DNA of 64,000 nucleotides from Rhizophagus irregularis (lineage: Eukaryota > Glomeromycota > Glomeromycetes > Glomerales > Glomeraceae): assembly GCF_026210795.1 (NCBI RefSeq), contig NC_089447.1:1180501-1244500 (forward strand), read 5' to 3'. Under the pieces are notes generated by a model. The model was not told the DNA's origin. It ran no database searches and was given only the letters and a program-made list of their open reading frames with translations. Shown one piece after another: positions 1-59,720 of this stretch; positions within the stretch are counted from its first letter, which is position 1; every line of letters begins with the position of its first letter. The translations under genes were made by a program, and so were the position numbers.

Positions 1-1566
1 TACTATAGTTTTATTATAGTTTCGGCAAGGTTTCAGCAGTTTCAGCATTTATAATAAGTTTTGTCAGGTTTCACTTTTCTCCAGAGTTTTACCAACTTTT
101 TAATAAGACTTTCATATAGTTTTGGCAAAGTTTTGCTATTTTGGCATTTCGCCAACTTGCCAAAATCCTCTAGTTTCTCCAGCAACCTTAGTAATATGAA
201 AATTGTGGTTTATTCTAGAATTTGATTTTTTGTACCACAGTATGAGATATTAAATCAACATGCTTAGTAGGTAGGTCACCTGAATTAATCAAAGAATTTA
301 TAGCTCTTCTGGTAATTGTCGCGTTGTGTAGATGAATCAAGGGCTCACCAAGCTGATTTACGTTCATTAGATTCTAACCAATTTCTGGATTCTTTATAAT
401 AAAACCGATCAACCTAGGCAAATACTTAGAAAATTTAATAGTATTCTTGACCAGTAACTTCAAAATTTCCATTGATTTCATTCATCCCACCAAGTCGCCT
501 TGCAGGCTTAACATCAGATGAGCCCACAATTCACCTGATGCCTCAATGGTGCAAGTGCTAGGGTTATCCCTCAGGTCTGTGCATCAGACAAGCTCAGTTT
601 ATCTGTGCCATTGTAGCTCGACCTGCAGACTTGAATTATATAGATCCCTATCATACCACTTCTTTCTTTGCATTTCTAAAAAAAAGCCCTTATCTTATAA
701 TTATCCAGCAAAGTCGTGCTATATCATATCTTGGTTTTGAGGGTATCAGCTAAAGTCTCAAAAGATATAAAGTAAACTTCTATTTCATTGAAATGTTTCC
801 TCATTGAATTTCTCTAAAAACTCCCGAATATTCCATTTCGTAGGTTTCGATCGAAATATTTGTGCACTCCGTTAATTATACTCTGTAGACAACTCTGTAC
901 AGTATAAATTCAAGGAAACGTAATTTTTATGGTTAAATGTTACAATCATTTCCTAAATAAGGCTTTTTTGAACCAATCATATTTCGAATTCGCAAGAATA
1001 TTTTTACTTTTTTTATACTAGGGCAATTTTAAGTGCTGGTCGGAACGGCGCAAAGCAAATGTAGTATATTCCAAAAATGCTGGATCAATTTTTTTTGAAT
1101 TTTTCATAGAAATAAATGAGCACATGATTTTTATGACGGAAAAGGTTATGAAAAGCCCGTTTTGTGTAGCTTTAATTCTGTGGTAAATTTAATTAGGTAA
1201 AGCAGCGTGAGACATTGAATTTAGTATAAAAAGTAATTTAGAGTAGCATTGTACCATGATACATTGGTTTCATCAAATGTATCATTAGATTTTTGGTAAT
1301 AGTTATGATAAAAGCTACAAAAACAACGGCGAGAATAAAAAACTCATCTTTTTTAGAGTAGAAATCCAAAAGAAGAGAGTTATACTGAAAAAGTTCCAAA
1401 GGTGTTCTTTGGAAAACACTTTTTAACAAATAATTATAGAAGTCCAAGAGACCTCTTTTTCCTTCCTTTTTATTTATATCGATTCTAACCTCCCCAAATC
1501 TATTATTTTCCGTTTTATTTTCTTTTAAAAAATAGTCAAAAATACAATATAATAATATATATAAAT
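1..1566. other. Intergenic region upstream of the SPP-like gene
   Basis: I see no convincing gene. Positions 1-180 contain repeated degenerate words of the type 'tttcagca' and 'ttggca', which suggests an old repeat. Roughly 300-760 is less AT-rich than its surroundings and has only short broken reading frames on both strands, so it may be a worn transposon remnant. I cannot name a family. The last ~100 bases before 1567 are AT-rich and probably hold the promoter and 5' leader of the next gene. Confidence 0.4.
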
Positions 1567-49021: not shown

Positions 49022-49305
49022 ATTATAAATCATTTCGCAACAGTTTATATTAAAACAATTTAAAAAAACTGTTGCGAAATTGTTCTTTTTTAGTTAAATA
49101 AACCATTTTGCAACAGTTTATATTAAAATTGTTAAAAAAACCATTACAAAATAATTTTTTTAGTTAAATAAACCATTTCACAATAGTTTATATTAAAACA
49201 ATTTAAAAAACTGTTTGAAACAGTTCTTTTTAGTTAAATAAACCATTTCGCAACAGTTTTTATTAAAATAATTTAAAAAACGTTGCAAAACAGTTCTTTT
49301 TAGTG
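49022..49305. repeat. Tandem repeat of hairpin units (~75 bp x ~4)
   Basis: About four head-to-tail copies of a 70-80 base unit containing TAAACCATTTCGCAACAGTT, TATTAAAACAATTTAAAAAA and CTGTTGCGAAA...GTTCTTTTTAGT. Within a unit the first part (CGCAACAGTT) is complementary to the last (AACTGTTGCG), so each copy can fold into a hairpin. Copies diverge by scattered substitutions. Confidence 0.78.
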
Positions 49306-52324: not shown

Positions 52325-54603
52325 TCATTCTTTATCCGACATGCAATCCCTAAATATTGCCTCAAAGAGAGGTTGCTTTTGCTGTGATGGAAGAAGAGAG
52401 AAATCGTCAAGGACTCTCGAATTTTGTTCTCTAGATTTCCCTTTAGGTCGTCCACGACTGACAGGATGCAACGTTTTTTTGTGGTTCATTAAATAAGTAA
52501 GAGTTGGAAAATACTTATTGCACGCGGAGTAACAAAGACGCGAATAGGCTGTTTGATCAAGGGACGGGCAGTGAAAATCGTACCCAGGAATTTTCATGAG
52601 ATCAAAATATTCAAGGAGATGTATGGCATTTGTGAAATGTCCGTCTTTAGCTTTCGTAACTGGAGGCAAAAAGCCATTATTCAAAAAAAGAAAATCCATG
52701 GCTTCTTTTGCACGAGGTGGTCCACAGCAGCTTGTATTCGTGCAATGTTTAATATCAAGAGAATACTGGCATAAATTACAGTGATTTTCGATCCATGACC
52801 ATGGCACAAAACATTCTGGTGAGTCGTCTCCTTTTTCTTGTTTTCTTTTTTGTTGTTTTTGTTCTTCTGCTTTTTCTTTGTCTGTACCTTCGAACTCTAA
52901 ATTTTCGAATGGATTAGATAGCTCTTCAACATACTGTGCATCAACTTTTTTCCCAAAAATCAAATCTCGACGCCAAATATCGCAAAGTGTTTCTCCAGCA
53001 TATCGGAAGTTTCGCAGGGCCAATTCTGGAACAATCACTTTACCTTGTGTATTTAGGTGCAATCCAAAGTGATCAATCGGTAGTGTAATACCTGCCAATT
53101 TTCCAGATAGTGTAGCCATGTCTCTTTCGACAGGATTATACTTGGATTGTCCTGGGGCATGTGTTCAAACAGTCAAGTAATCTAAATCAAACTTTCGAAA
53201 AAGTTGACAGTATATTTTAATGTTCTTTAGATGTCTTGGATTCTCGTCCGGCCCTCCATCTACCAGTAATACTCAGATCGGTCGAATTTCTCCACCAGTT
53301 TTCAATACATCATCATATTGAGGATCCAGGACAAGGCTTTCAAGATCTTGCATAAAGCAAGGTAAATGAAAACGTACAAGAAAACCATTGACGGCGTACA
53401 AAAATGGCAAGTTGTCTGTTCGTAATTCATCATTTGACTCGTTTAGTTTTGTTATAAAGTAAACCGATTCTGAACCAACTTCTGCGCATTTCCTGAGGAA
53501 AATCATGGTCAGCTACACTAACAGGTTCATTAACTGACTGCAACGAATGAAATATTTGACCTACAGCAGGTACTCCAAGACCTATCTTCGCCTTGTCATC
53601 TTGTGAAATAACAACGGAATTATCGGCAAAGGCGGTAGCAAATTGCCTTGCATATTTAGTAGATGCAAGACAATAATGACCATCAGGATGGTCACGTGTT
53701 TCAGTACGCGAAACTCCCGCTACTGAGACTCACACTGGATGATGATGTGCTTTTGCGGCTATAGAATTGGATTGGCGAGGCAGCAGGTAATTGTTCAATG
53801 TTATTCTCACCATATAAACATCATAATTTTCTTTAAGATTTTTGCGCAAATGTTCGATAGTTCGCACTTTAATCACTTCCTTTCGTCATTTTTTATCAGC
53901 TGCTCCAAACTTGATCGAATCGTAGATATGATTATGCAAATTTGGATGTTCGAAAAGAAATGGGGGCCGACCAGGCTTATCATATAGTATTACCATCTGG
54001 TCTTCGTGAAGTATTTTTCTTTTTTTTTTCTTTGCATTTTTGAGCATAATCAGCATTCCTTTTTAATTTAATAATTCTTTTCCTGTTAGATCCAATTTCA
54101 GCTCGATGACTTCCTATTTTCAAGTACGTATCATGTCGAAATTGATAATCTGTTGAAATATTGTAGATCTGCTCGAATTCACTAATCTTTTTTTTGGCTA
54201 TTTTTATCTCATTTACCGCTTTTCTTTGTGCTGATGCATTGACAGAAATTTCCAGTATAGGATCTGCCGAACGAATTGCAGGAAGAGTAGGAAGAGGAGG
54301 ATGTGAATCTTTTCTAGGTGCAGAAGGTAATGGCCTTATTGTTTGCATATTACATAGATTATGTGACGTGGCCAGATAATTTCTAATCATGTCATCAATT
54401 TCCGGTCTACTCTTGATTTTAATTTTGTTCCACTCTTTTGCTACTTCACTACAAATATCAGCACGGTTAGGAGTTCCGTTCCCATTCTTAACCATAATAC
54501 TATATACATAAGCGTTAACAAACTCTTGGTACTTATTTGTTGGTGAATGAAAGATTGATTTCTTATTAAATTTAGGGCTAAGAAAGAAGGTTTGACGAAT
54601 CAT
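52325..54603 (-). pseudogene. DDE-type transposase pseudogene
   Basis: About 760 codons in three frames. The N-terminal part (54603-53980) has a possible DNA-binding segment TNKYQEFVNAYVYSIM...EWNKIK (HMG-like by eye) and a basic coiled-coil. The core reads RDHPDGHYCLASTKYARQFA, SQDDKAKIGLGVPAVG, LLVDGGPDENPRHLKN and APGQSKYNPVERDMATLSGK. Asp in DDKAK, Asp in VDGGPDE and Glu in NPVER are the likely catalytic triad. The C-terminus has Cys/His clusters (CNLCQ, CTNTSCCGP, C..H). It is broken by TGA stops at 53888-53886, 53732-53730, 53275-53273 and 53167-53165 and by frameshifts near 53980 and ~53510-53700. All four nonsense codons are TGA, consistent with C-to-T decay of CGA, or G-to-A decay of TGG. 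I cannot name the superfamily. Confidence 0.8.
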
Positions 54604-55312
54604 TTTAGCACTGAAAATAAAATTATTGACGCGTTTGTTTTATTAAAAGTTTTTAAAATCAAATCTTGAAAGTTGAACGTGTCATGAACTCCGCAGCATC
54701 AGCAAGTTTTAAACAGGCGTATAAAGTGTTGAAAAACGCCATGTGTTGCTCAACGCCAAAAAACGTAGGGAAACGAACCCTTTGTCAATCAACGCTACTT
54801 AAAAACGTTTAAAACCGCATAAAACAACACCAATTTAAATGTAAAGCTACACGTAGTAAAACAACAATAGTTTAAAAACGCGTATACAATATATAAAAAC
54901 GCGTATATTGATATTAAAAATGCGTCAAGCAATGGTTTTTTAGTCATCGTACAATGGTTAACATTGTAGTATTAATTTATAAACATATATTTTATTGTAT
55001 ATTATTAATATATATATTATATAAAATGTGTAAATTTATTTATGATAAAATACAGTATCAATACAAATATATTATCTAATGTAAATTCCTCTTGTTATAA
55101 TTGGATTGCCGCGGATTTTTAAGCGATCAACGTACTAAATTTCCGTTGACAAAGCGCCCCTGGTGACACAACCATAACAAGGTGGGATGTGATTTTAACA
55201 ATCAACTAATTGATCTTTCTACGCGATAATTATATTAATATATATTGTCTAATGTAAATCTATATAATTAAATAAAAAAAAAAAGTTTTCGAATATTCGA
55301 AAACAATTATTC
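54604..55312. other. Spacer between transposase pseudogene and micro-exon array
   Basis: About 700 bases. The first part (54690-54960) is crowded with AACGC/GCGTT and GTTGA words. It contains CATCAGCAAGTTTTAAA (54697), which is repeated in inverted orientation at ~58678-58694 (TTTCAAACTTGCTGATG). The rest is AT-rich, with a GC-richer island at ~55105-55185. No gene. Confidence 0.5.
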
Positions 55313-57938
55313 CTAAAAAATGAAAGAAATGTTTAATTAGTAAAAAAATAAAAAAAGATGGTAAAGTTTCGCAATGAAACTTACCATTTTAAATTCTAAC
55401 GCTCCTAATCGACACCTCGGAAGCCCTGAACCTATAAAAATAAAAAAAAACATTAGACAATGTTTTAAACTAAAAAAAAGAAAGTTTCGTAATACGAAAC
55501 TTACAATCCAATCAATCCAATTATCCCAAGTACCCAAAGCCTACAAAAATAAAAAAGAAAACATTAGTAATAATATTAAAAAATTGATAAAGTATCGCAA
55601 CATTTTGTTGCGAAACTTACCTATCACCATCCGGAATTCAAAATATCCCGAAGCCTAAATAAAAAAAAATAAAGATAATGGAATGTTAATAACCTTAATT
55701 AAAAAAAATAAAAAAATGGAAGTTTCGTAACGAAAAAATGTTACGAAACCTACCATTTTATATTTCCAGAAACCAAACCTGCAAAAAAAGAAATGAAACG
55801 TTTAGTTAAACGTTTCTTAAATAAAAGAATTAAAAAAAAACTTACCGTTTTCCAAAATTCCAAATCCGGAAATCGAACCTACAAAAAATAAAAGAAACGT
55901 TCGGTTAGAACGTTTCTTAAAGAAAAAAAGATAAAAACGAAAGTTTCTTACGAAACTTACCGTTTAAAGTCCCTCTTCTTAAATTTCCCGAAACCTAAAA
56001 AAGAATAAAGGAAACGTTAGTAAGAGTTTCCTAATAAAATAAAAAAATATTATTAAGTTTCGTAACGAAACGAAACGTTACAAAACTTACCCAACAGTTC
56101 GTCCATTTTGAACTCTCCGATCCTACAAAATGGATAAAGGAAACGTTTAGTAAACGTTTCCTAATAAAAAATTAAAAAAAAAATTAAAAAATTACCCTTT
56201 GAAACTTACAATATCCAAGATCCGAAGTTGAACACGCCGAAGGTCCTACACAAAGAAAATATAGGAAACGTTAGAAACGTTTCCTTATAAAAAAAAATGA
56301 AAATTTTTTTTTTTTAAAAAAAGTTTCGAAGCAAAATGCTTCGAAACTTACCCTTTTCCCGGCCGTTTCCCAAAAAGAGACCTACAAAAAAAAAATAAGA
56401 TAAACATTAGAAACGTTTTCTTATAAAAAAAAATGAAAACAATTTTTTTAAAAGTTTCAAAGCGTAAAATTACGCTTCGAAACTTACTCTTTTTCCCGTT
56501 TCCCAAAAAAAAGACCTACAAAAAGAATTTAAAGAAACGTTAGTAAACGTTTCTTAAAAAAAAAAATATTAAAGAATAAAGTTTCGCAACGTTTCATTGC
56601 GAAACTCACCATTTCGTCTACCCGAAAAACCCGTAGACCTACAAAAATAAGAAGAGGAGAAACGTTAGTAAACGTTTCTTAAAAAAAAAAATTAAAACAA
56701 TAAAGTTTCGCAACGGACTCACCTATTCTACCCAAAGTCGAAATCCCGTTTAGAAAACGTCTAGGAATTCGCAGACCTAAAAAAGAAAGAAAAACGAAAC
56801 GTTAGTCACGTTTCGTTAAAAAAAAATGAAAAGACAAATAATAACTCGAAGCGTTAAAAACGTTTTGTTAAAAAAAGAAAAAATAAAAAAATCGGAAGCG
56901 TTAACAAGCGTTAGATTAAAAAAAATAAAAAAATTATATTACGAAGCGTTAAAAAACGTTTTGTTAAAAGAAGAAAATCGGAACGTTAGCCAAGCGTTTC
57001 CGATTAAAAAAATGAAAAAAAAGTTAATAACGAAAGCGTTAAAAGCGTTTCGTTAAAAAAAGAACAAAAAAATGTAAATCGGAAGCGTTAGCAAAGCGTT
57101 GATTAAAAAAATGAAAAAAAGTTATTAACGAAAGCGGTAAAAAACATTTCGTTAAAAAAATGAAATAAAAAAAACAATCAGAAGCGTTATCCAACGTTCC
57201 GATTAAAGAATTTTTTAAAAAAAACAATATTTCAGAAGCGTTTTCAACGTTCCGATTAAAAATGAAATAAAAAAATTAATCGGAACGTTAGCCAACGGTC
57301 CGATTAAAAAAAAAACAATATTTTGGAACGTTTTTCAACGTTCCGATTAAAAATTAAAAAAAATAATAAATCAGAACGTTTGCTAAAAAATAATAAATCA
57401 AATCGGAGCAGCAAACGCTCCGATTAGATTAAAAATAAAAAAAAACAATATTTCTTAAAAAATGAAATAAAAAAATTAATCAGAACGTTAGCTAACGTTC
57501 CGATTAAAGAAATCAAAAAAAAATAATAATATTTCGGAAGCGTTTTTCAACGCTTCCGATTAAAAAATGAAATAAAAAATTAATCAAGCTAAGTCCAACA
57601 TTCCGATTAAAGAATTTTTTTAAAAACAATATTTCAACGTTTTTCAACGCCTGATTAAAAATGAAATAAAAAATTAATCAGAACGTTAGCAGCGTTCGAT
57701 TAAAAATTAAAAAATAAATAATCGGAACGTTAGCCAACGTTCCGATTAAAGAAATTTAAAAAATAATAAATCGAACGCTAGCCAACGCTTCTGATTAAAA
57801 AAATTAAAAAAAGAATAATATTTCGAAACGTTACTAAAAAACGTTTCGTTAAAAAATGAAAGAGTAGTTTCGCAATGTTTCGTTGCGAAACTTACCAGAA
57901 GTTTGATACCTTCCAACTTTTTTCCGTATAAGGCTCAT
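55313..57938 (-). CDS. Micro-exon gene with hairpin-bearing introns, unknown product
   Basis: Read on the minus strand, thirteen short exons are bounded by excellent splice sites (donor GTAAGT, GTGAGT or GTAGGT; acceptor T-rich...TAG or CAG). Positions: 57938-57896, 56776-56723, 56638-56610, 56515-56488, 56381-56352, 56245-56210, 56122-56091, 55994-55961, 55878-55846, 55778-55754, 55654-55621, 55540-55505, 55431-55385. Their lengths are 43, 54, 29, 28, 30, 36, 32, 34, 33, 25, 34, 36 and 47 nt. A further acceptor lies at 55313. Joined from ATG 57938, the first six exons stay open for 73 codons (MSLIRKKVGRYQTSGLRIP..., with the repeated unit FLGNG in exons 4 and 5); TGA forms at the junction with exon 7. 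Introns are 67-106 nt except the first (1119 nt). No family recognised; it may be a decayed or non-coding copy. Confidence 0.5.
55432..56722 (-). repeat. Family of related introns, most with paired hairpins
   Basis: The eleven short introns between exons of the array share one plan. At the 5' end most have a palindrome that includes or touches the donor (GTAAGTTTCGnnnCGAAACTT type). At the 3' end most have a second palindrome (AAGAAACGTTnnnAACGTTTCTT type), separated and followed by A/T runs. Stem sequences differ between introns while the two arms stay complementary, for example TTTCGAAGC/GCTTCGAAA, TTTCGCAA/TTGCGAAA and TTTCGTA/TACGAAA. This is repeated structure, not simple tandem identity; a few introns (for example 55655-55753 and 56123-56209) have weaker or missing second hairpins. 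Confidence 0.7.
56800..57890. repeat. Array of ~20 short palindromes inside the long first intron
   Basis: Every ~50-60 bases a palindrome of the type AATCGGAACGTT-AGCC-AACGTTCCGATT occurs, followed by A-rich sequence (aaaaaatgaaataaaaaatt). Arms vary between copies: GAACGTT, GAAGCGTT, GAAACGTT. No splice donors or acceptors like those of the neighbouring array are visible here, so it is treated as one intron. Confidence 0.75.
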
Positions 57939-58009
57939 ATCTCAGGAATTAATAACCTTATATTACGGAATTTACAGAGTTTTTACATGAATAACGGATA
58001 AAACTTTTT

Positions 58010-58255
58010 ATAGGATGAAGGGGAAAACGAAAGGGTTATGGGAAAACGAAAGGGAAGGGAGAAGGCGAAGGGGGAACGAAAAGTGTAATAGAAAAACGGG
58101 AAAAGGGAAGAATAAAGGGCATAAAAACGAATGGGCGGGGATAACGAAAGCGTAATAGGAAAACGAAAGCGGGAAGGGGAGAATGAAAGGGCATGGGAAA
58201 ACGAATGGGAAGGGGATAACGAAATGAATGGGAAAAACGAAAGAGAAAGCAAAAA
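58010..58255 (+). repeat. Purine-rich minisatellite (GGGAAAACGAAA type)
   Basis: About 245 bases built from imperfect copies of GGGAAAACGAAAGGG, GGGGATAACGAAAG and similar words on the plus strand. It lies just upstream of the first exon of the micro-exon gene, so on that gene's strand it is a pyrimidine-rich promoter-proximal tract. Both minus-strand frames over it translate into Ser/Pro/Phe repeats and are not genes. Confidence 0.75.
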
Positions 58256-58303
58256 AAATTAAGCTTTGCTAAAAAAAGTTTAATTTTTTTTTTGCTATAC
58301 CAC

Positions 58304-58476
58304 AGTGGCGCAGTGGTAATTATTAATCCAGTATCACGTGACACACGTGATATATCATTACATAAAATACGTAATGCTTAATATTAATTTTAATAAATAT
58401 TTATAATTGTACAATGGTTAGATCGTGAGATTTGATATATTAATAGTGTAATTGAGTGTACGGTTCGGTTCCTAAG
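58304..58476 (+). repeat. Possible tRNA-derived (SINE-like) Pol III sequence
   Basis: TGGCGCAGTGGT (58304) resembles a tRNA A box, and GGTTCGGTTCC (58463) resembles a B box with one mismatch. A second D-arm-like word, ACAATGGTTAGA, lies in between (~58410), and nearly the same word occurs at ~54950. No cloverleaf can be folded by eye, so this is not called a tRNA. Confidence 0.25.
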
Positions 58477-58748
58477 GTGAGTAAAAATAAATAAATTAAT
58501 GTAATTTATTTAGTTGTGTTAATATACAGTGCGTTGAACTACACATTAGAGTTGAACGACGCGTATATTAACATTATGCGTTGGTATACTCCAGTATACG
58601 GGTGTTGATTAATATTGTAAAATGCGTTGAACAACTAGCTGGTGTTGATCAATGCGTATACTGGTGTGAATCAACACTTTTCAAACTTGCTGATGAGCAA
58701 TTCAAATTTCTTTTTTTGTAGCGATTAGCAAGATATCTTTTCTTCCTG

Positions 58749-58790
58749 CAGCAATACGCAGCAATACGCAGCAATATGCAGCAATATGCA
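58749..58790. repeat. Short tandem repeat (GCAATACGCA x ~4)
   Basis: Four adjacent copies of a 10-base unit, two as GCAATACGCA and two as GCAATATGCA. The C/T change between copies is the type seen in CpG decay. Confidence 0.8.
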
Positions 58791-59143
58791 TGATCGTCAT
58801 ATTAAAAATGTTGGCATAATTTTTTTGGATGGAATTTTTTAATGCTCGAGAATCAATAAATATATTTTTGAATACAAAATAAACTACTATACAATGAAAT
58901 TTTTTATCTATCGTTTTTATTTAGTGTATTTTGTTTGGAGTGAGTGCTAATAAGCCGATGAAAAAAAAAACAAAATTCGAACATTTTTTTTTTTAAAAAA
59001 AAATTTTCAGCCCTTTTTATAATTCTAGATCTATAAAAGGAAAATGATTGACATTCACGTGATCAGATATCTTACCTGGGGGTGGGGGGTACACACCTAT
59101 AATAAAATGATATGAGGTAATATATGTCACAGCCCTAACAATA

Positions 59144-59720
59144 TTAGTAATTATTAATATTTACCATTTTTATCTGTAAATTCAGTTCTTGTAAATAAAA
59201 GTAAGGACTTGCATTTACTAGGCGGTTTGCAAAATATTTTTCATAAACAGATATAATTTGAATTTTTAAAATATCACCAGTATCACCTTCTATGTCATGT
59301 TGATTAGTTTTTGATTTTGGTATACATACTTCAATCCCACTTCCATTAACTTTTACTTTAAAGTCATTGAATTTCAAAATATAATGTTCTCCACCTCTTA
59401 ATCCAAGAAATAGTACATTATAAAAAAAAACAGTTTTCAAAAGACCAGTAGGATTTTCAATATTTAATATAGGTAAATTAAATATTAATTTTACTTTATC
59501 CAAAGATAATGAATCTGATCCACAAACTTCTGCCTTTCCTTGTTCAGCAATATCCTTAAGCTTGCCATCTAAAATTTGCTACAAATCTGAAAATATTTGT
59601 CTATCTTTTAAATTTAAAGGCCTACCATTCATCGAAAGTATTGATTTAAATGTCTATTCAAAGTATTAATACAAGCATTAATTGAAGTAGCTTGAATATC
59701 AGCCACTTTAGTATTACTTT
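59144..59720 (-). pseudogene. N-terminal part of a DUF3504/Crypton-type tyrosine recombinase, decayed
   Basis: The open segment 59503-59144 reads LIFNLPILNIENPTGLLKTV, FLGLRGGEHYILKFNDFKV (the catalytic Arg block typical of this family), VCIPKSKTNQHD and ends ELNLQIKM before a GTAAAT donor. Upstream, the protein continues in the same family style (MNGRPLNLKDRQIF, ILDGKLKDIAEQGKAEV) but with a TAG stop and a frameshift, and still further RHLNQYF. The exon following the donor is found at 52118 on the other side of the inserted element (YKISNID...). Confidence 0.78.

Follow-up and report, generated by a model that had tools for sequence, protein, structure and literature searches.

A predicted micro-exon array with related hairpin introns, carried by a non-autonomous Plavaka-type transposon of Rhizophagus irregularis

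We analyzed a 64,000-nucleotide stretch of the genome of the fungus Rhizophagus irregularis (assembly GCF_026210795.1, contig NC_089447.1), referred to here as the window, which is C19:1180501-1244500 in the genome-wide searches reported below (146,748,485 bases in 32 contigs). Its minus strand carries a transposon copy, here called L021, and within that copy an array of predicted micro-exons at 55313-57938. The array comprises a first exon (E1), twelve internal exons (E2-E13) of 25-54 nt, each with both a donor and an acceptor, and a last acceptor at 55313, which agrees with the original prediction from the letters of this DNA in strand, place and exon sizes. The donors read GTRRGT, the acceptors are T-rich and end in TAG or CAG, and the introns are 67-106 nt long, apart from intron 1 (1,119 nt). 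When E1-E6 are joined they give exactly the 73 open codons that had been predicted.

As had also been proposed, the introns of the array are related and its exons are mostly not. Introns 2-13 resemble one another with a median pairwise z of 6.8, and 98% of the 66 pairs exceed a z of 3, whereas exons 2-13 have a median z of 1.4, with 15% of 66 pairs above 3. The closest exon pair (z 7.1) is E4 and E5, the two exons for which a duplication had been suggested. A strict intron motif, consisting of the donor, the branch word CTAAC or CTAAT and the acceptor, fits 8 of the 12 short introns. The minus strand of the element has 8 occurrences of this motif, its plus strand none, and neither strand of the other 60 kb of the window has any; in 300 dinucleotide shuffles the mean count of the motif was 0.013 and the maximum was 1. 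A chance collection of splice words is ruled out by these counts. A search for a tRNA gene found none, and an Rfam scan of 54000-59500 returned three weak matches, none of which reached the gathering score.

The short introns share a plan. A first hairpin, H1, starts at about intron base 3, placing the donor partly within its stem, and is followed by a second hairpin, H2, and then by a T-rich tract and TAG. The branch word (CTAAC or CTAAT) often lies in the loop of H2 or beside it. Within the window, introns I2, I6 and I9 have no intact H1, and I13 has no H2. We surveyed 71 distinct introns, identified without hairpin or branch-word criteria, from 11 loci, 11 of these introns being from loci chosen by their H1 signature (L046, L047, L048 and L050). 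H1 is present in 56 of the 71, as compared with 7.5% in shuffles, and a stem of at least 7 is present in the last 66 nt of 61 of the 71, as compared with 26.9% in shuffles, some of these 61 stems being A/T runs or H1 itself. In 43 of the 61, the stem has a branch word in its loop or next to it. When intron 1 is folded whole, no more than 4 local hairpins have an unbroken stem of at least 7. Between close copies, intron 1 (56777-57895) diverges by approximately 6-16%, and the short introns by approximately 2-3%.

A signature of the form GTAAGTTTCG-N(4-24)-CGAAACTT was found at 652 places genome-wide and at none in a reversed control. We counted the inner pairs of H1, which lie outside the search pattern, in 59 of the 66 distinct hairpins from 100 listed of the 652 places; the other seven, which were omitted, are five palindromic or nearly palindromic sequences with matches on both strands, and two longer duplicates that overlap. 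The first inner pair is intact in 56 of 57 distinct hairpins, as compared with a mean of 24.7 and a maximum of 35 in shuffles, and is variously A-T (25), C-G (15) or T-A (15). The second is formed in 49 of 51 (shuffle maximum 46) and the third in 39 of 47 (maximum 36), while for the fourth and fifth pairs, at 30/42 and 18/27, shuffles reached the observed number. Among the 12 of the 59 hairpins that are all 31 nt long, we observed 15 double-changed cells vs 6.2, with sliding controls at 0-4, and a covariation score of 0.255 vs 0.116; none of 500 shuffles was as high in either measure. These hairpins share descent, so that the shuffles overstate certainty. Sequence comparison of this kind suggests that H1, which is typically present at the predicted 5' splice site, covaries.

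The element that carries the array was delimited by an alignment of 20 related regions, in which similarity begins and ends at fixed points corresponding to window positions 58695 and 54697. The ends are 13-bp inverted repeats, with CATCAGCAAGTTT in inverted orientation, and a 2-bp target duplication, whose dinucleotide varies by copy, accompanies 18 of 19 copies, the exception being L028. One copy, L024, is nested within another copy, and the window copy holds the uninterrupted target. Allowing at most 2 mismatches, the 5' 19-mer occurs at 79 places in the genome, as compared with 2 in a reversed control. The 5' 162 bp and the 3' 254 bp occur together, in matching orientation and 7.8-8.6 kb apart, on contigs C2, C4, C12, C14, C15 and C29, and we take these six places, where both ends are paired, as six longer elements. 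Four of them (L041, L042, L043 and L045, read from the 5' side) have open reading frames (ORFs) in common, the longest being 98-99% identical; in L041 the longest ORF encodes a Plavaka transposase (PF18759, E=3.9e-34) and another encodes a C2H2 finger. Searches by tblastn (E<=1e-3) with four ORFs of L041 matched nothing in L044, L046 or any of the 19 array elements, and 54697-58695 contains no ORF of 150 aa or more. Lacking a recognizable transposase, the window element is non-autonomous. It shares both ends with the elements that encode a Plavaka transposase and is thus a non-autonomous Plavaka-type transposon, which is presumably moved in trans by the Plavaka enzyme. The proposal that the array is carried by a transposon is therefore borne out by the ends, the target duplications, the nested insertion and the transposase elements with the same ends. 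Plavaka elements are reported to be prevalent in R. irregularis (PMC11075540).

A 207-aa ORF on the minus strand (53980-54603) starts 93 bases past the 3' end of the transposon, which places the insertion just upstream of a possible gene; Pfam searches with the two ORFs adjoining the element gave nothing convincing. Immediately outside the 5' end of the transposon, at 58748-58790, the decamer GCAGCAATAC is repeated 4.3 times.

Arrays of this kind are also found elsewhere in the genome. The 100 listed of 652 signature places, on contigs C1-C4, form 43 groups. Of these, 5 have a listed 5' end of this transposon no more than 5 kb away, and at least 8 have a listed 5' end, a listed 3' end or a match from the first search at that distance or closer; among the matches listed, 35 of the 43 groups are away from known copies of this transposon. 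At four isolated signature places on C1, each examined over approximately 300 nt, three have exons and related introns and one is apparently the end of an array. Another locus, L044, has a variant of the inverted end, a related array and a similar leader, and its two flanking bases do not match. By eye, the minus strand of L044 also has a longer open-frame stretch before one micro-exon-like end, as if a piece of a gene had been captured. A further locus, L046 (C2:971600-973900), consists of a leader, a pyrimidine-rich stretch and an array. A search with L046 gave 746 candidates, the best 40 of which are 40 loci, L046 included. In 35 of these 40 the match starts at the first base of L046, in the leader region, and all 40 listed are more than 15 kb away from every listed 5' end of this transposon. 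The array family extends beyond this transposon. At positions 1434-1859 of L046 there are four closely similar 38-nt exons in tandem (the first of which was entered one base late in the comparison), each followed by its own hairpin intron, which suggests recent duplication of the unit.

Upstream of the array, the element has a 5' module with a leader. In the leader comparison, which covered 15 of 18 copies together with L044 and L046 (L027, L028 and L039 were missed by the word search), a pair of CACGTG words recurs, with variation, in all of those compared. These words precede the leader at 58335-58349 in the window and at approximately 170-190 in L046, and they resemble a target of basic helix-loop-helix (bHLH) proteins. 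Leader hairpin a reads TACCGC..GCGGTA in some other copies and is reduced in L038; with that exception, the leader hairpins vary in sequence among copies and keep their folding. The 5' module probably supplies transcription, and the CACGTG words are a putative part of its promoter. The features of the element are collected in Table 1.

Table 1. Features of the window copy of the transposon and of its predicted micro-exon array (positions in the window)
Feature	Position	Strand	Remark
Whole non-autonomous Plavaka-type transposon copy, 3,999 bp	54697..58695	-	ends common to aligned copies
2-bp target site duplication (CT), left copy	58696..58697	.	
5' terminal inverted repeat CATCAGCAAGTTT	58683..58695	-	
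Two CACGTG words, putative promoter part	58335..58349	-	immediately upstream of leader
Leader hairpin a, TACCAC..GTGGTA	58298..58318	-	
Leader hairpin b	58249..58295	-	A-rich/T-rich arms around AAGCTT in other copies
Pyrimidine-rich stretch, leader to exon 1	58012..58248	-	present also in L044, L046
Exon 1	57896..57938	-	ATG to donor; true 5' end may differ
Intron 1 (1,119 nt)	56777..57895	-	~48-nt tandem units, short inverted words, without exons
Exon 2 (54 nt)	56723..56776	-	
Exon 3 (29 nt)	56610..56638	-	
Exon 4 (28 nt)	56488..56515	-	resembles exon 5
Exon 5 (30 nt)	56352..56381	-	
Exon 6 (36 nt)	56210..56245	-	73-codon frame stops at exon 6/7 junction
Exon 7 (32 nt)	56091..56122	-	
Exon 8 (34 nt)	55961..55994	-	absent from rebuilt deposited model of C1 copy
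Exon 9 (33 nt)	55846..55878	-	
Exon 10 (25 nt)	55754..55778	-	
Exon 11 (34 nt)	55621..55654	-	
Exon 12 (36 nt)	55505..55540	-	
Exon 13 (47 nt)	55385..55431	-	
Introns 2-13 (67-106 nt)	55313..56722, interleaved with exons 2-13	-	H1, H2, T-rich tract, TAG/CAG typical
Last exon start (acceptor 55313) and 3' part of element	54697..55312	-	
3' terminal inverted repeat AAACTTGCTGATG	54697..54709	-	
2-bp target site duplication (CT), right copy	54695..54696	.	

Two other parts of the window may be mentioned. In a PEPCK gene (PF01293, 43500-44330), inspection of two introns by eye revealed no donor hairpin; the donor of the first is weak and a clear branch word is missing from it, and the second has a GTAAGT donor and a T-rich acceptor and is longer than the short introns of the array. 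At 49025-49304 there is a 70-bp tandem repeat in 4 copies, with short inverted words.

The reading that we favor, and consider probable, is that the element, a non-autonomous DNA transposon of the Plavaka type, carries as its cargo a micro-exon array resembling a transcription unit, in which intron features are kept, the exons drift and no conserved protein is encoded. Mobility would be supplied in trans by the Plavaka transposase, and the array would be transcribed by RNA polymerase II, with the 5' module probably driving it. Splicing at the hairpin-embedded sites would then excise the introns, leaving exons of drifting sequence joined together, and arrays would grow by tandem duplication of intron-plus-exon units, as E4/E5 and the four L046 exons suggest. 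The intron signals and hairpins would be kept while the exons drift, and, judging from frame-breaking indels, the spliced RNA of this copy would have no conserved protein product. Selection may act on the spliced RNA, on the introns or only on transposition.

Several observations weigh against this reading. Among five covariation measures, two did not exceed shuffles, namely how many pairs show a double change (273 of 500 shuffles gave at least as many) and how many pair types occur (464 of 500), and compensatory changes at CpG sites could reflect paired decay. The annotation of R. irregularis drew on Illumina and Nanopore RNA data (PMC10234402), and the deposited gene models stem from gene-prediction pipelines. 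In favor of the reading, one deposited protein, OCT59_000045 (P0001), can be rebuilt from L022, the copy on C1, with 9 introns and with exon 8 skipped; the rebuilt model uses predicted acceptors at 9 of 9 introns and predicted donors at 7 of 9, the other two donors being off-pattern, and its junctions are the cheapest path under a penalty for non-consensus sites, not deposited coordinates. The remaining adverse observations concern coding capacity. Stop codons are depleted in nonredundant exons, at an observed-to-expected ratio of 0.70, as compared with 1.02 in introns and 0.81 in the antisense of the same exons. In the best frame, L038 has 1 stop in 145 codons and L028 and L022 have 2 each (0 of 100 shuffles as low in each case), and the window copy has 2 (1 of 100 single-base shuffles as low); these are the copies in which depletion is strongest, and each of the 14 remaining copies was equalled by 5 to 37 shuffles in 100. 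The deposited R. irregularis proteins P0002, P0003 and P0004, on other contigs, follow the L038 frame over several exons. Finally, within the closest group, exons diverge less than introns in L022 (0.5% vs 1.6%).

These last points favor the most serious alternative, which we consider unlikely, that the array is a protein-coding micro-exon gene family, like the micro-exon genes (MEGs) of schistosomes, captured by a transposon; on this view, small and variable proteins would be encoded by master copies, and the copies seen here would have decayed. In addition to stop depletion and the greater conservation of exons in the closest pair, this alternative would account for deposited multi-exon protein models on contigs of four different lengths and for the likeness of neighboring exons. 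However, exon indels break the frame between groups of copies: exon 6, for example, has 36 nt in L021 and 37 nt in the other group's aligned copies. Within groups, 5 indels are multiples of three vs 74 that are not, and between groups 91 vs 400, counts that are pairwise over copies of shared ancestry, so that the events are not independent. Exon lengths are not biased toward multiples of three (20, 18 and 17 of 55 nonredundant exons in the three length classes), and each of the 38-nt tandem exons of L046 would shift the frame. Two similar exons fall in different frames within the very L038 frame that P0002 follows, and the rebuilt C1 model omits an exon of the array and takes the two off-pattern donors. 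(Exons longer than 60 nt and L024out, the outer nested copy, were excluded from the exon similarity, length, stop and indel counts.) Elsewhere in the closest group, for which only the 5' part of L024out was taken, exon and intron divergence is 2.7 vs 2.8% in L023 and 5.0 vs 2.4% in L024.

The 73-codon frame itself was considered as evidence of coding and rejected, since the joined exons have another, longer open frame, which runs from the end of E2 to within E12 when a start codon is ignored, and since all three frames of L036 have few stops. Given the frame-breaking exon indels, it is unlikely that the 73-codon frame represents a conserved protein, even though stops are depleted. Stop depletion and the deposited frames make a coding ancestor, or coding members elsewhere, possible. 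The original designation of a micro-exon gene family therefore holds for the anatomy, and finds no support as far as a conserved protein is concerned, given these indels and the similar tandem exons in different frames.

A second alternative, to which we give somewhat less weight, is that the array is a hairpin satellite that merely resembles a spliced gene, with palindromic units containing splice-like words, recent duplication and no use by the spliceosome. Consistent with it, the tandem units that make up intron 1 contain inverted words and no exons, and DNA-level processes could maintain hairpins. The conservation of splice words bears on this alternative in both directions. When L021 is compared with six of the 7 group B copies (L033 omitted; gapped positions skipped), the donor GT is kept in 63 of 65 cases, the branch AA in 42 of 45 and the acceptor AG in 51 of 60; in the controls, other exon dinucleotides are kept in 65%, other intron dinucleotides in 73% and other GT or AG inside introns in 84%. 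At 85%, the acceptors have no margin over the last of these controls, as would be expected of a satellite. In contrast, the donor G and T, which lie mostly outside the H1 stem, exceed it, and the branch AA is likewise kept. The expectation that donor and acceptor words would be preserved in other copies is thus mostly upheld, the acceptors being kept no better than the last control. Also at odds with a satellite are the placement of the branch word in the H2 loop or close to it, the introns of an annotation-pipeline model that can be rebuilt at predicted sites, and the presence of leader and array together at 35 of the 40 listed L046-like loci. From this pattern we infer splicing at the predicted sites of the array.

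The third possibility raised in the original prediction, an introner-like burst in which hairpin introns were independently inserted into one pre-existing gene, fits introns that are related and structured among mostly unrelated exons, and fungal introner-like elements are described as symmetrical or as having predicted stable structure (PMC8469720), but we regard it as very improbable and rejected it because no frame is conserved across copies, units seem to have been duplicated along with their exons (E4/E5, L038 and L046), the four isolated hairpin matches examined on C1, out of the 652, all proved over approximately 300 nt to be a micro-exon array or its end, and protein searches made with the window exons and the L038 exons, in one frame of each, gave only R. 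irregularis models of arrays of this kind.

A transposon-borne array with kept introns and drifting exons resembles several known systems in part. Like the Plavaka transposons of R. irregularis (CACTA/CMC/EnSpm group), which are multi-copy and nested, the window element has the same terminal sequences at both ends (PMC11075540); it differs in having a micro-exon array and no recognizable transposase, a cargo that the excerpted text of that paper does not mention. Schistosome MEGs likewise have many exons of approximately 36 nt or less, an association with transposons and exon duplication, but their exons are described as symmetric, and so frame-neutral, and their proteins as bearing a signal peptide (PMC8293314). 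Here, exons of all three length phases occur in nearly equal numbers, the frame is mostly lost, and the related part is the introns rather than the exons. Ascomycete introner-like elements and symmetrical stwintrons are also multi-copy spliceosomal introns with inverted-repeat or stable structure (PMC8469720), and stable structure is found in the array introns as well. Those elements are described as integrating into exonic gene sequences, whereas here the introns are arrayed with their own exons and have separate hairpins at the splice site and the branch point. The SP7-like effectors of Glomeromycotina belong to the same fungus, and their genes contain repeats and a conserved intron (PMC11333574). 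An SP7-like protein combines a signal peptide with a repeat domain, in which hydrophilic repeats follow in one frame, whereas no frame is kept across copies of the array. Among the results listed by full-text literature searches, whose coverage excluded preprints and most subscription papers, we found no description of such micro-exon arrays in Rhizophagus.

More tentatively, and with considerably less confidence than in the reading of the window element itself, the loci may together form a mobile 'inside-out' gene family. Its members, spread across the genome of this arbuscular mycorrhizal fungus, would be promoter-leader-array loci in which the spliced-out introns, bearing covarying hairpins at both the 5' splice site and the branch point, are selected and exons are free, and which grow by unit duplication, change transposon vehicles and produce highly variable spliced RNAs.

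If the arrays are spliced as predicted, the usual rule would be reversed, in that intron features would be conserved and exons free. They would also provide many natural replicates for testing how splicing is affected by hairpins located at a 5' splice site and at a branch point, as well as test cases for the origin of micro-exon genes and their spread by transposons. For R. irregularis, a key plant symbiont, array loci would account for part of the unclassified repeats and for some of the gene models that are hard to interpret.

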